Shown here: piece after piece, positions 1 through 4,475 of the stretch
Position numbering within the stretch: the stretch's first letter is position 1
How the letters are laid out: the number at the start of each line of letters is the position of its first letter
NCBI GenBank assembly: GCA_022226935.1
Contig: CP092081.1
Coordinates: 1,382,386 to 1,446,385 of the forward strand
DNA: 64,000 nucleotides
Reading direction: 5' to 3'
Source of the DNA: Nitrospira sp.
GTDB taxonomy: Bacteria > Nitrospirota > Nitrospiria > Nitrospirales > Nitrospiraceae
Position numbers and translations under genes: made by a program
The notes under the pieces: model-generated
Seen by the model: the letters and a program-made list of their open reading frames with translations, nothing else
Databases searched by the model: none
Told to the model about the DNA's origin: nothing

Positions 1-69
1 TACCTGGAGTTTGCGAGGTGCAGTCACATATCGAATCCGTCCTACTTTGACCATATAGATCAAGTGAAG

Positions 70-127
70 CGGGGGCTGCGCCCCCGATCCCCCCGGCCGT
101 CCGGTCCATTGGTCCGGAACGGCCGGG
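70..127. repeat. two adjacent GC-rich hairpins
   Basis: Positions 70-86 form a perfect 7-bp stem (CGGGGGC / GCCCCCG) with a 3-nt loop. Positions 92-100 (CCCGGCCGT) pair perfectly with 119-127, and the inner CCGG at 101-104 pairs with 114-117 with one bulged base. They lie downstream of the leftward Rep-like operon, so they could be a strong terminator or a structured origin of a rolling-circle element. I see no gene in the rest of 1-341. Confidence 0.5.
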
Positions 128-341
128 CGGCCTCGTTGGCCGTGTTCTTCTTCGACTAATCCCCGTGGTTCCGTAAGTCCTTATCTCGCTCATTGCGCTT
201 TTAGAAGACTCCCCAAGGGACGGCCAAGCTGACGCATCGCCGTCATCATTGGATAGCTGCCGTTCAGTCGAGGCCCTATCACCCCCTGGAAGACGCAGGG
301 CGTGAAAGGGCCTATTGGGTGAGACTGAAGGGTAGGGGGCT

Positions 342-593
342 TTAGTGGCGGTAATTGCGAAACGTGAGGCCAGCGCAGGCGCAGCACAGTAGGATTTCTC
401 TGGCTACGCCGTCACACTGGTAACAGATGCGCCCCCACATGCGATCAGCGTGACAAAACTCGCACAAGCGTTCATGGCTGTGTGCCGCACAGAGCCAGCC
501 CTTTCGGGCGCGATCATAGATGAGGCCAGGCCGTCCGCAGTACGTAGGTCCAAACAGGGAATCAACTTTCCTGGCACAGCCATTAACAGTCAT
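342..593 (-). CDS. small cysteine-rich (zinc-ribbon-like) protein of the mobile element
   Basis: An 83-residue protein of no family I recognise. It has nine cysteines, including CEFC near residue 45, ICYQC about twelve residues later and LCCAC near residue 70, with several histidines. This arrangement suggests one or two zinc-binding knuckles. Its start codon overlaps the stop of the Rep-like gene in an ATGA arrangement (590-593), so it is probably translated by coupling as the last gene of the leftward mobile-element operon. A DNA-binding accessory to replication is possible but is inference. Confidence 0.6.
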   Translation of the reverse strand: MTVNGCARKVDSLFGPTYCGRPGLIYDRARKGWLCAAHSHERLCEFCHADRMWGRICYQCDGVAREILLCCACAGLTFRNYRH

Positions 594-1336
594 GCTTTAG
601 AAAAGGTGAGGCCTTTCCCCAAAACGAGTTGCAGAATAAATCCGTCGAACCAGATGGCATGACCCGCGAGCAGGTCTTCCCAGGTCTTGAAAAGGACAAC
701 GCGAGGGATTTCGATTTCCCCTCTAATCCGACGAAAAGCATTCCTGCTCGACCACTGATTGCGCATTTCTTCCCACAAGGTGCTCATAGGGAAGCCGAGC
801 GACCGTTTCCAGGACCAACACATATTCACGTACCCCGATTGATCCTGAACGTATTGGCTGATCACATACCGACTGAGGCGATTGCGAGAGCGGTTTCCAG
901 GTTTGTAGGACTTAATCCAGACGACTGGAGCCCCGTGGAGGCCTTCCCATTGTGCCGACAGCCATTCGTGCGAGATCCAGAACCGGCGAGCCCGTTCACC
1001 ATCGGGGATTCGCCAAGCCCAAAAGATATGCAGCACGCCGTGACCTTCTTCCGTGCGAACTTGGTAATACTCCAGGCCTCGAAAGCCGAGCTGTCGTTCG
1101 ATCCGTTGACGTAATTGCTTATGGTGATAGGTCAGCTTGTCGGCCTGGCCGCCTTGTGCGGTAGACAGGGTGACCCATAACACTTGGAAGTGATGGGCCT
1201 CCCAAAACCACAAGAGCGAACGGACCCGTTGATACCCACGCTTTTGTTTGCGCGACCATTCCTGCCTGGCAGGCCGTTCGCGTGACTCAGGGTCTTGAGG
1301 GGCTGATTCGAATCTGGATGAATAGGCCTCAGCCAT
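590..1336 (-). CDS. putative replication initiator (Rep)-like protein
   Basis: A 248-residue protein resembling rolling-circle replication initiators in layout. There is a beta-strand ending in VTLSTA (motif-1 like, about residues 53-61), then EEGHGVLHIFWAW (about residues 96-108) where the metal-binding HUH motif would fall, then RYVISQYVQ with two tyrosines about four residues apart, where a catalytic tyrosine would lie. The histidine motif is degenerate: H-x3-H, with Phe where the second HUH His is expected. The protein is rich in Trp and Arg. Its start overlaps the preceding small ORF by 8 nt (ATGGCTGA), so translation is coupled. An inactive or divergent Rep, or an unrelated DNA-binding protein, cannot be excluded. 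Confidence 0.5.
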   Translation of the reverse strand: MAEAYSSRFESAPQDPESRERPARQEWSRKQKRGYQRVRSLLWFWEAHHFQVLWVTLSTAQGGQADKLTYHHKQLRQRIERQLGFRGLEYYQVRTEEGHGVLHIFWAWRIPDGERARRFWISHEWLSAQWEGLHGAPVVWIKSYKPGNRSRNRLSRYVISQYVQDQSGYVNMCWSWKRSLGFPMSTLWEEMRNQWSSRNAFRRIRGEIEIPRVVLFKTWEDLLAGHAIWFDGFILQLVLGKGLTFSKA

Positions 1337-1523
1337 GAAACGTCTCCTCAGATGGTGGTGGTGGCGAGAAAGCCGGGAGAGACGAACTCTGGGGACTCGT
1401 AGAAGTACTGCTAATCAAGCCGGTGAGTCGTCGTGCACCCTGGAGCAGAAGAGCCTGCAGGCGTGAGCTGCGCTCTTCTCTCGCGTGTGAATTGACAGGG
1501 ATGAAATGGACTTCAATCTTCAT
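1329..1523 (-). CDS. small hypothetical protein between Xre and Rep-like genes
   Basis: A 64-residue frame starting MKIEVHFIPV, with a short beta-strand, a basic helix (LQALLLQGARRL) and a Pro/Ser-rich tail. I do not recognise a family. The chosen ATG lies inside the last codons of the upstream Xre gene (11-nt overlap), and the stop overlaps the start of the Rep-like gene by 8 nt. Those overlaps are the main support that it is real, because the frame is short. A longer frame opening at 1601 would overlap most of the Xre gene and is not credible. Confidence 0.5.
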   Translation of the reverse strand: MKIEVHFIPVNSHAREERSSRLQALLLQGARRLTGLISSTSTSPQSSSLPAFSPPPPSEETFHG

Positions 1524-1779
1524 TGGGGTGCCCATTGGGCAACGCATGATCATGGGAAAGATCGGGTGTCTTTTCAGCCTGCAACTCGAAGAGTTCATCA
1601 ACGGTGCAACCGAAATACTCAGCGAGGAGAAGGGCGACCTGCAGACTCGGTACCGCCTTGCCCTGCTCCATTTTGGTGACGTAGGAACGATTCACCCGTA
1701 TCCTGCGTGCCAGGGTAGCCTTGGAAATGCCGCGTTGCGCTTGTCGAGCCCGCCATTCTTTCAGGTGATTTTTGATCAT
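1513..1779 (-). CDS. Xre-family helix-turn-helix regulator
   Basis: An 88-residue protein that is almost wholly one Cro/C1-type helix-turn-helix domain. The recognisable core is ATLARRIRVNRSYVTKMEQG followed by SLQVALLLAEYF, with a short acidic tail. It is first in the leftward operon, preceded by a good ribosome site (GGAGG, 7 nt before the ATG) and a promoter at 1800-1828. As in temperate phages and integrative elements, it probably represses its own operon and/or the divergent one. It faces a second Xre-type regulator at 1887, an arrangement typical of a lysogeny-like switch. Confidence 0.85.
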   Translation of the reverse strand: MIKNHLKEWRARQAQRGISKATLARRIRVNRSYVTKMEQGKAVPSLQVALLLAEYFGCTVDELFELQAEKTPDLSHDHALPNGHPNED

Positions 1780-1886: not shown

Positions 1887-2267
1887 ATGAATACTCCAGA
1901 GCTCAATCGAGAAACTCCCCAAGCCCCGCAGGGTTTTCGCGCCCTGGTCAAAAAGCGAATGGAAGAGGTGAATCTCAGTCTACGGACTGTGGCCGCCGAA
2001 ACGGGGATTTCCCCGGCTTATCTCTCTCGTTTGTTATCTGGCGAACGGGGACTTCCGCCAGACGATGAGATGATTCTGAGACTGGCCGAGGTCCTGCGCA
2101 TCGATCCGCCTGAGCGGCTGCTTGTGGAAGCGAAGCGAGTGCCGAATCTACTGCTTCCGGCCCTTTTGAGCGCTCACCAAGCCGTGTCGAGCGCAGAACT
2201 GAAGGAAGCGATGAAGCAGTTAAAGGCGGTGATTGTCCAGCAACGAAAGAGGAGATTTCGGCGATGA
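1887..2267 (+). CDS. Xre-family regulator (ImmR-like)
   Basis: A 126-residue protein with an N-terminal Cro/C1 helix-turn-helix (about residues 10-65: LSLRTVAAETGISPAYLSRL) and a helical C-terminal half ending in a basic tail. It overlaps the following ImmA-like protease gene by ATGA. The pairing of an Xre repressor with a co-encoded ImmA protease is the switch of elements such as ICEBs1, where the protease cleaves the repressor to release excision; the same logic is inferred here. The start follows the promoter at 1849-1878 by 8 nt, so the leader is extremely short or leaderless. Confidence 0.85.
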   Translation: MNTPELNRETPQAPQGFRALVKKRMEEVNLSLRTVAAETGISPAYLSRLLSGERGLPPDDEMILRLAEVLRIDPPERLLVEAKRVPNLLLPALLSAHQAVSSAELKEAMKQLKAVIVQQRKRRFRR

Positions 2268-2833
2268 AGACGGTATCCGGTCTGCTCCACTCGTTCATCC
2301 AGTGGTTGCGACGACCGGAACGCTTTATTCAGAAACTCCAAGCTATCTATCCCCACTGCCAAACGCTCCCTTTCCACAATCAAGAAGATGCTGCGGCCCA
2401 ACAGGGCGTCGAGTTGCTTGAAACCACGTTCAGCCCTAAGATTGAAGGTATAACGACCAGGGACGAGGGCCAGGTCATCATTGTGACTCGCCGTGGCCTC
2501 AGTCCGCTGAATCGACAATTTGTCATTGCCCACGAATTGGGGCATGTCCATTTGCATCTTCCCGACATGAAAGACACGGAGGAGGCAGCCTTGCTCACTC
2601 CGAATGATCACCGAGACATCGAGGCTGATGCGTTTGCCCTTGTCTGGTTGATGGGGTCCTTACCGAAGGAGCGACTAGAGCGAGAAGTCTTCCCGTATGT
2701 GCTCAATAATCGCGAAATGGCCTGGCGCGCACTGCGTGTGATTGGCTACCTGGCGTGGTATCACCAGCGCATCCGCTTGGCGAACTGGCTGGAACGCGCC
2801 TGCTTGGCCCTACAAGAGAAAGGAACGGCATAA
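2264..2833 (+). CDS. ImmA/IrrE-family metallopeptidase
   Basis: A 189-residue protein with the zinc-protease motif HELGH (in IAHELGHVHLH, about residue 90) and a downstream EADAFA segment supplying the third ligand, both characteristic of the ImmA/IrrE (DUF955) family. These proteases inactivate Xre-type repressors. It sits between its likely target regulator (ATGA overlap) and the serine recombinase (TAATG overlap), so the three genes form one coupled unit controlling and carrying out excision. Confidence 0.87.
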   Translation: MKTVSGLLHSFIQWLRRPERFIQKLQAIYPHCQTLPFHNQEDAAAQQGVELLETTFSPKIEGITTRDEGQVIIVTRRGLSPLNRQFVIAHELGHVHLHLPDMKDTEEAALLTPNDHRDIEADAFALVWLMGSLPKERLEREVFPYVLNNREMAWRALRVIGYLAWYHQRIRLANWLERACLALQEKGTA

Positions 2834-4377
2834 TGGCAGTTACACCCGTCCCGACCATTTGCGGGCTCTATACGCGCGTCTCGACGCGGAATCAGGCAGA
2901 CACCGAATACAGTTCTCTCGAAACCCAACGCGAAAAGCTGGAGGCCTACTGCAAGAGCCAGGATCAATACGTCATTTATCGAGTCTATGAAGACGCTGGC
3001 TTCTCGGCGGATACGATGAATCGACCGGCTCTGAAGGAAATGCTGCAGGATATTCGTACTGGACGGATATCCTGCGTGCTGGCGTACAAAATTGATCGAT
3101 TAACCAGATCCGTGAAAGATTTCCATGTCCTGATGGATCTATTCGACCGCCACGGCGCGAAGTTCGTGTCGATTACCCAAAGTCTTGATACGCATCATCC
3201 GATGGGACGACTGCTGCGGAACATCCTCCTCGACTTTGCCCAATTTGAACGGGAAATGACGGCGGATCGTACCCGAGACAAGATGCAGCAACGGGCCACG
3301 AAGGGCCTGTGGAATGGCGGAATTGTTCCCTTCGGCTACCGCAATGAAGATAAGCGCCTGGTCAGACATCCGGAGGAAGCCGCCTGTGTGCAATTCATAT
3401 TTCAGCAGTTTGTCCAAGACCCATCACTGACCCGACTTCGTGCCGAGCTCCATCGCAGAGGATGGCTTTCGAGGAGCGGGAAGCAGTGGGGAAAGATGAC
3501 GCTGGCCTATATCCTGGCAAATCCCGTGTATTGCGGGCGCACGCAGTTTAACGACCAACTATTCCAGGGGGAACACGAAGCGTTGATTGAGGAGGGGCTG
3601 TATCACAAGGTTCAATCGCTTCCTCGCGATCATGGCAGAGCGGTTACCAAGATCCAACGGACATTTCTTCTCAAGGGATTGCTCCGATGCAGTGTCTGCC
3701 AGTCGTTTATGAGCCCTCACTACACGCAGAAGCGCCGAAAGGATCAATCAATCAACCGAATTGCCTACTATCGCTGCACGAAGACCATGCAGCACAGCAA
3801 CAGCGTCTGCCCCATCAAAGCCCTCAATGCCGACGCGGTAGAAAATCAGGTTGTTGAATATCTATCCACCCTGAGCCAGCAAGCGGAATGGGTAAAAGTC
3901 ACAGTCGAGGAGTTGAACCGGGACCAAAAAGAGCAAGTGCGACCGTTGGAACAGGAGGCGATCCGGCTGAAAGCGAGCCTGAATCGGCTGGAACGCGAAA
4001 TAGATCGATTGGTGCGAGGGGTAGGGCAGGGGACTGTATCCGTCCAACGCCTTGAAGAGGAGATGCGCCGGCAGCAGCAGGAACAACATAGCCTAGAAGC
4101 TCAATACCAGGCCGTGCAACGACAGATCCAGGAACATACGGCGAGGGAATATGATGCAGAGGTTGTGCTACGCAACCTGAAGAATTTTCAACGAATCTTC
4201 GCGGCTTTGCTTCCGAAAGAGAAGATGGAAGTACTGCGGTGTTTGGTGCGAGATATCATCGTCCACCCCGACAAGCTCGTCTTTAATATCTTTGAACTTG
4301 ACGAGGTGGGAACGAGTTCGCAAGAGCGTAAAGGTTGTCTCCCCGGGCAGGACTCGAACCTGCGACCAGCCGGTTAA
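2833..4377 (+). CDS. large serine recombinase (integrase), reading into tRNA-Asn
   Basis: A 514-residue large serine recombinase. The N-terminal resolvase domain has the catalytic serine in YTRVSTRNQ (Ser17) and the arginine-bearing IDRLTRS segment. A recombinase domain follows (about residues 160-270), then a zinc ribbon (CSVC, then YRC and CPIK, about 290-340) and a long coiled coil (about 350-450). The start at 2833 overlaps the protease stop; a frame extending further left is out-of-context. The last dozen residues (CLPGQDSNLRPAG) are the antisense translation of the tRNA-Asn 3' half, and the TAA stop is in the anticodon region. The native C-terminus in the excised form probably differs. 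Confidence 0.93.
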   Translation: MAVTPVPTICGLYTRVSTRNQADTEYSSLETQREKLEAYCKSQDQYVIYRVYEDAGFSADTMNRPALKEMLQDIRTGRISCVLAYKIDRLTRSVKDFHVLMDLFDRHGAKFVSITQSLDTHHPMGRLLRNILLDFAQFEREMTADRTRDKMQQRATKGLWNGGIVPFGYRNEDKRLVRHPEEAACVQFIFQQFVQDPSLTRLRAELHRRGWLSRSGKQWGKMTLAYILANPVYCGRTQFNDQLFQGEHEALIEEGLYHKVQSLPRDHGRAVTKIQRTFLLKGLLRCSVCQSFMSPHYTQKRRKDQSINRIAYYRCTKTMQHSNSVCPIKALNADAVENQVVEYLSTLSQQAEWVKVTVEELNRDQKEQVRPLEQEAIRLKASLNRLEREIDRLVRGVGQGTVSVQRLEEEMRRQQQEQHSLEAQYQAVQRQIQEHTAREYDAEVVLRNLKNFQRIFAALLPKEKMEVLRCLVRDIIVHPDKLVFNIFELDEVGTSSQERKGCLPGQDSNLRPAG

Positions 4378-4411
4378 CAGCCGGCTGCTCTACCAACTGA
4401 GCTACCGGGGA
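4339..4411 (-). tRNA. tRNA-Asn(GTT)
   Basis: On the minus strand a full cloverleaf is present: acceptor TCCCCGG/CCGGGGA, D-arm GCTC/GAGC, anticodon stem GCCGG/CCGGC with loop CTGTTAA (anticodon GTT), and T-arm GCAGG/CCTGC with TTCGAGT loop. The discriminator base is G and no CCA is encoded. The 3' half overlaps the end of the serine recombinase frame and is the probable integration site of the element on its left. Confidence 0.97.
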
Positions 4412-4475
4412 ACGAGGGTGTAGTTAACGAACGAGGGCATTCTAACAAAACTGAAGAGCGAAGGGGGAGACTTTT

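Follow-up and report, generated by a model that had tools for sequence, protein, structure and literature searches.

What kind of mobile element, if any, does a compact replication-like gene group near the left end of this stretch of a Nitrospira sp. genome (G000, 4.23 Mb) belong to? In the window, as we call the whole 64,000-nucleotide stretch of DNA analysed here, the initial annotation had singled out four overlapping frames (an Xre-type regulator, a small frame, a Rep-like protein and a Cys-rich protein) and took them, with two nearby hairpins, for a compact replication module of a circular element now integrated. The integrated element and its replication module stood, but the four genes as a unit did not, the unit being the Rep-like gene, the Cys-rich gene and the origin. 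Nor did the bounds of 342–1779 hold, as the element reaches far beyond them and its integrase, ImmR/ImmA-like regulators and cargo lie outside. The features of the locus are as follows.

1–41: start of the element's variable, cargo-bearing side, which an assembly gap of 100 N immediately precedes
42–70, minus strand: origin-like site GCTTCACTTGATCTATATGGTCAAAGTAG, CTTG^AT-type, at the sharp border between conserved backbone and variable cargo
70–86, minus strand: GC hairpin abutting the CTTGAT site on its 5' side
88–130, minus strand: second long hairpin, of another sequence yet still a hairpin in L012 and L041
219–244: small stem-loop GACGGC...GCCGTC, conserved on visual comparison (other elements read GGCGGC...GCCGCC)
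342–593, minus strand: Cys-rich protein, 83 aa, probably binding two zinc ions
590–1336, minus strand: Rep-like protein, 248 aa, with HUH changed to H103-I-F105 and Tyr157 kept
1329–1523, minus strand: 64-aa frame, a leader of rep and not a gene
1513–1779, minus strand: Xre/Cro-type regulator, 88 aa (Pfam HTH_3, E 4e-14)
1887–2267, plus strand: HTH repressor, 126 aa, ImmR-like by domain content
2264–2833, plus strand: M78/ImmA-like metalloprotease, 189 aa (Pfam Peptidase_M78, E 1e-9)
2833–4377, plus strand: large serine integrase, 514 aa (Pfam Resolvase/Recombinase; PHROG_95 integrase, E 4e-117)
4337–4412, minus strand: target gene tRNA-Asn(GTT)
4337–4350: attachment core, the tRNA-Asn 3' end, of which intact relatives have a second copy (11–17 bp) at their far end

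The overlaps between the four frames measured 11, 8 and 4 nt, as first described, but the strict translational coupling read into them fails because the 64-aa frame is without protein-level constraint: we judged it not to be a gene since its dN/dS was 0.33–1.8 and L017 carries an in-frame stop, and the ATGA overlap of the Rep and Cys genes alone remains. Between the window and its relatives, and excluding comparisons with saturated dS, dN/dS was 0.03–0.07 for the 248-aa gene, 0.12–0.15 for the Cys gene, 0.10–0.24 for Xre and 0.04–0.14 for the HTH, protease and integrase genes. An Xre gene at the head of the operon is confined to copies with a serine integrase at tRNA-Asn and related ones, and L006, L007, L008 and L017 keep the gene order of the window; most copies have an excisionase-like HTH gene before rep instead, overlapping it by ATGA where read, as in L010. 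Rep and Cys genes are adjacent wherever both are present, and with the origin-like site (window 42–130) they are the conserved core of the family. To the right of this core lie the divergent HTH/M78 pair, which its domain content suggests is ImmR/ImmA-like, then the serine integrase and tRNA-Asn; the tRNA was the sole match in an Rfam search.

The Rep gene was present in 29 of 147 genomes of the Nitrospira family, with up to six copies per genome, and in a sample of the phylum was restricted to this family. Elements range from 4.9 to 10.7 kb (median 8.5 kb). Most copies have a tyrosine integrase, and the roughly 30 copies with both ends defined are mostly bounded by 45–48 bp direct repeats of tRNA 3' halves (tRNA-Arg, tRNA-Cys, tRNA-Gln and others). 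Serine-integrase copies at tRNA-Asn are bounded by a duplication of 11–17 bp, and relatives without the element hold empty sites, in which a terminator and host genes directly follow tRNA-Asn. Mapping these empty sites on occupied ones placed the insertion at the tRNA-Asn 3' end, with 11–17 bp duplicated; a site-specific integrase and an att duplication at the target gene are both present. In the element maps we saw neither conjugation nor capsid genes, and no transfer gene in the backbone. Actinomycete AICEs of the pSAM2 type are alike in their att-rep-int-att order at a tRNA gene, their tyrosine or serine integrases and their tandem arrays, but they have another Rep, and the Nitrospira elements are smaller, with no FtsK-like Tra among the element proteins scanned (a subset of ORFs). 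L083 (G064:C1:1415000-1434999) and L087 are tandem tRNA-Asn arrays with at least two serine recombinases and several cargo blocks.

For the window's own copy, the downstream flank of tRNA-Asn was located at G000 1569397; a contig ends 1.75 kb away, and its terminal 85 bases are those of window 1–85. Because of this match, we take the element to be probably about 6.1 kb long and the scaffold order to be probably wrong at this point, a real rearrangement being less likely; its presumed cargo is two genes without a Pfam match. A DUF6603-like gene was rejected as left neighbour, given the 100-N gap between and the tRNA-Asn flank elsewhere. Such gaps sit at the origin hairpin: besides window 1, two other origin sites of this genome (G000:C1:1571232 and 2530747) stop at one, which makes the scaffolding near window 1 unreliable.

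Comparison of copies between hosts pointed to recent movement. L098 and L121, from different species-level genomes, share an element that is 100.0% identical over 9.4 kb, cargo included, with host flanks at 79.7%, and L091 and L095 are 100.0% identical over 7 kb, with flanks at 81.8%. Since the elements are identical and the host flanks only 80–82% so, whole elements have, by this comparison, recently been transferred horizontally. Between L004 and L091, backbones are 93.5–99.6% identical and the cargo past the origin-like site is unrelated. Cargo beyond the site includes pAgo/SIR2, a type IIG restriction-methylase, DRT UG14, Upx, a PifA-like NTPase, OLD/AriA-like ATPases, PDC candidates, an AbiJ-like protein and a RelA/SpoT-domain protein; part of it is metabolic or without assigned function. 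Large single-gene cargo without a Pfam match, at L094:11233-14949, L105:4739-8770 and L119:6728-8899, comprises candidate new defence genes; PADLOC matched two of the three (Upx, PDC-S46) and gave no match for the 1344-aa L105 protein.

In the tRNA-Cys copies, among them the second copy of the window's own genome, the stretch from the Cys gene to the origin holds genes for a response regulator, a histidine kinase and a chlorite dismutase (Cld; Pfam E 1.5e-31). In that second copy the module lies at L004:15922-19074 (G000:C1:3381922-3385074), and it is also present in serine-type L017. The mobile Cld protein is 99–100% identical in eight Nitrospira genomes. Outside the element, all 29 genus genomes carry Cld-family genes, one of which, at about 50% identity, is found in nearly all.

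The initial annotation could match the element to no named family. As a single sequence the Rep-like protein had no direct match in Pfam, PHROGs or the PDB, and none to Pfam REP_ORF2-G2P (PF23343) at E ≤ 10, but it has relatives in the Rep of the Thermotoga miniplasmids pRQ7/pRKU1, for which rolling-circle replication is documented. tblastn matched the two at E 5e-6, and hhalign aligned them over 135 columns with 28% identity (96.9%, E 1.4e-10). The pRKU1 Rep itself belongs to REP_ORF2-G2P (E 2.4e-15), and pRQ7 has been reported to replicate by the rolling-circle mechanism (PMC3398313). On the strength of these alignments, the 248-aa protein is a homologue of rolling-circle Reps. The miniplasmids (846 bp) have the same motif order and also contain TTCACTTGAT, but they are free plasmids without integrase or cargo, and their own Rep has a canonical HMH and YxxK. 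A search of IMG/VR returned a single matching locus, 82% identical.

The suggested check for an HUH fold pointed the same way, at low confidence. The AF2 model of the 248-aa protein was weak (pLDDT 58, pTM 0.59); with that low confidence, its secondary structure follows the HUH order, a beta-alpha-beta-beta-alpha-beta sheet with the Tyr helix. Its best structural match was the SIRV1 Rep (ORF119, PDB 2x3g; Z 9.2, rmsd 3.0, 110 of 116 residues), with the next unrelated row at 6.5, and 2x3g also topped the sequence-profile search, weakly (E 0.041). The SIRV1 Rep has an HUH fold and nicking activity (PMC6668415); it differs in being viral, in its canonical HUH and in sharing 7% identity. In BFVD the named top matches were replication proteins of microviruses, inoviruses, rudiviruses or circular viruses, and Foldseek against the PDB gave weak, mixed matches, the best being a monooxygenase (E 0.007), with the ISDra2 transposase at 0.017. 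The predicted fold thus resembles that of HUH proteins.

All three features noted at the outset in the protein (Rep-like strands, a tyrosine motif and a degenerate histidine motif) are real, and the altered active site is a fixed trait. HUH has become H-x-F (His103, Phe105) in all 47 distinct copies covering the motif, whereas relatives carry HMH, HYH or HLH, and Thr95 occupies a position that is Glu in most relatives. All of 48 copies have Tyr157 and Tyr162; hhalign places the former opposite the pRKU1 Tyr, and the Lys of the motif III YxxK is Ser160. As judged from these alignments, fixation of H-x-F argues against ordinary metal-dependent nicking. With His103 and Tyr157 kept but the second His, Glu and motif-III Lys all lost, catalysis may not follow the chemistry of canonical HUH Reps. 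One possibility, which we advance tentatively, is a new kind of initiator, in which the HUH metal site was replaced, became fixed as H-x-F and works otherwise (other invariant residues might, for instance, have taken over as metal ligands, or the adjacent zinc protein might provide them), and in which the conserved CTTGAT origin also marks the exchange of cargo. The neighbouring protein had no Pfam or PHROG match; its seven Cys and single His do not vary across copies, a set that suggests two zinc sites.

In alignments, GCTTCACTTGATCTATATGGTCAAAGTAG, the GC hairpin upstream of it and the second hairpin preceding that are nearly invariant. The 29-nt origin-like motif was found in 24 of 29 genus genomes (0 with a reversed-pattern control), about 510–550 nt after rep in most copies. 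Both hairpins near 70–130, present in the initial annotation, were upheld: they fold far better than shuffled sequences (DNA z -4.7, 0/200) and are conserved across elements. In the second hairpin, variation preserves pairing at 6 positions; because covariation over the whole alignment is nil (0.03), support for the structure comes from fold strength and from the different hairpin of L012 and L041. pRKU1 contains TTCACTTGAT once, and such a 10-mer would occur by chance in about 3% of simulations. The CTTG^AT of the site presumably resembles the nick sites of phiX174 and pC194. By these sequence features, the site with its hairpins is origin-like. Two other interpretations were rejected: an end of the element, as the att repeats lie beyond the cargo; and an IS91-type transposon end, as the element ends are integrase att sites. 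The palindrome had also suggested a Xer/dif-like site. L153, L154 and L155 have the site and att-like repeats without an intact rep, and are non-autonomous or decayed.

We propose, with a probability of about 0.72, that the locus is an excisable tRNA-site element whose Rep-like and Cys-rich proteins start rolling-circle-type replication at CTTG^AT, and which reinserts after transfer. As read from the assemblies, its duplicated tRNA ends, empty sites, conserved backbone, sharp change of cargo and recent movement demonstrate integration and transfer; excision, nicking and the route of transfer are what we infer. The copies are integrated forms in assemblies, with no excised circle observed. Following this logic, the ImmR/ImmA-like pair, or another repressor, would first release control, and the integrase would excise a circle. 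The Rep-like protein and its Cys-rich partner would then act at CTTG^AT beside the GC hairpins, leading to rolling-circle-type replication and possibly to single-strand mobilization by the Rep-like protein at the same site. The circle would reach another cell by a route not encoded in the element, and reinsert there at a tRNA gene.

The Rep-like protein could instead be mainly a non-canonical relaxase and its site an oriT, the element being an IME carried by helper conjugation machinery. We regard this as possible but doubtful. Relaxases akin to rolling-circle initiators are encoded by 118 of 144 IMEs of streptococci (PMC5704250), and the integrase-tRNA architecture and interspecies transfer would fit. 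These IMEs are alike in integrase, tRNA or 3'-end targeting, Rep-like protein, cargo and absence of conjugation machinery, but they use another Rep family, and the Nitrospira element is family-restricted, with a degenerate HUH and no coupling protein found. VirD4-type coupling proteins occur in just 6 of 29 genus genomes, whereas the elements occur in most, and a relaxase would meet the same degeneration of the active site (H-x-F).

Alternatively, the Rep-like protein may no longer nick and may serve as an origin-binding regulator or initiator factor, with another enzyme replicating or cleaving the strand. The second His, the Glu ligand and the motif-III Lys are gone in all copies while purifying selection on the protein is still strong, as this would predict; however, Tyr157, Tyr162 and His103 are invariant, which would be unexpected were catalysis gone, and we consider the idea unlikely.

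Less credible is a satellite of filamentous phages, replicating as ssDNA from its own origin and packaged by Nitrospira inoviruses. Zot-bearing prophages are present in 16 of 29 genus genomes, including that of the window, the viral structural matches of the Rep-like protein are replication initiators of ssDNA phages, the variable element size would suit filamentous virions, and some inoviruses use the same tRNA site. Filamentous phages and RS1-type satellites also have an Xre-type regulator, a Rep-like gene, origin hairpins and tRNA integration. However, ten inovirus loci compared with the elements had only the tRNA sequence in common, with no origin-like site or hairpin, the Rep of the one locus read in detail is apparently unrelated, and no morphogenesis gene was seen among the element proteins scanned. 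None of the Zot positions listed across the genus falls within an element. Integrated filamentous phages with Zot, Rep-like and integrase genes were recorded at L161 (G000:C1:3717973) and L162-L170, at up to four copies per genome, and exact matches to the tRNA att sequence of one element, L111, occurred in 4 of the 10 inovirus loci examined.

An ordinary chromosomal regulator operon or a decayed, immobile prophage remnant deserves almost no credence: some copies are decayed or without rep, but intact elements are 100% identical between hosts with flanks of 80–82%, and exact att duplications and empty sites exist.

We found no description of such a Nitrospira element in the literature searched, where the family is apparently undescribed; it is of a known general kind (IME/AICE-like), with an unusual, derived Rep. 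Its naturally altered active site is directly testable, and the cargo slot between origin and att offers a defined place for finding further defence genes. The element is one of the main means by which Nitrospira, nitrifiers of key importance in nature and in wastewater treatment, exchange genes, and it explains the spread of anti-phage systems and of a second chlorite dismutase among Nitrospira species.
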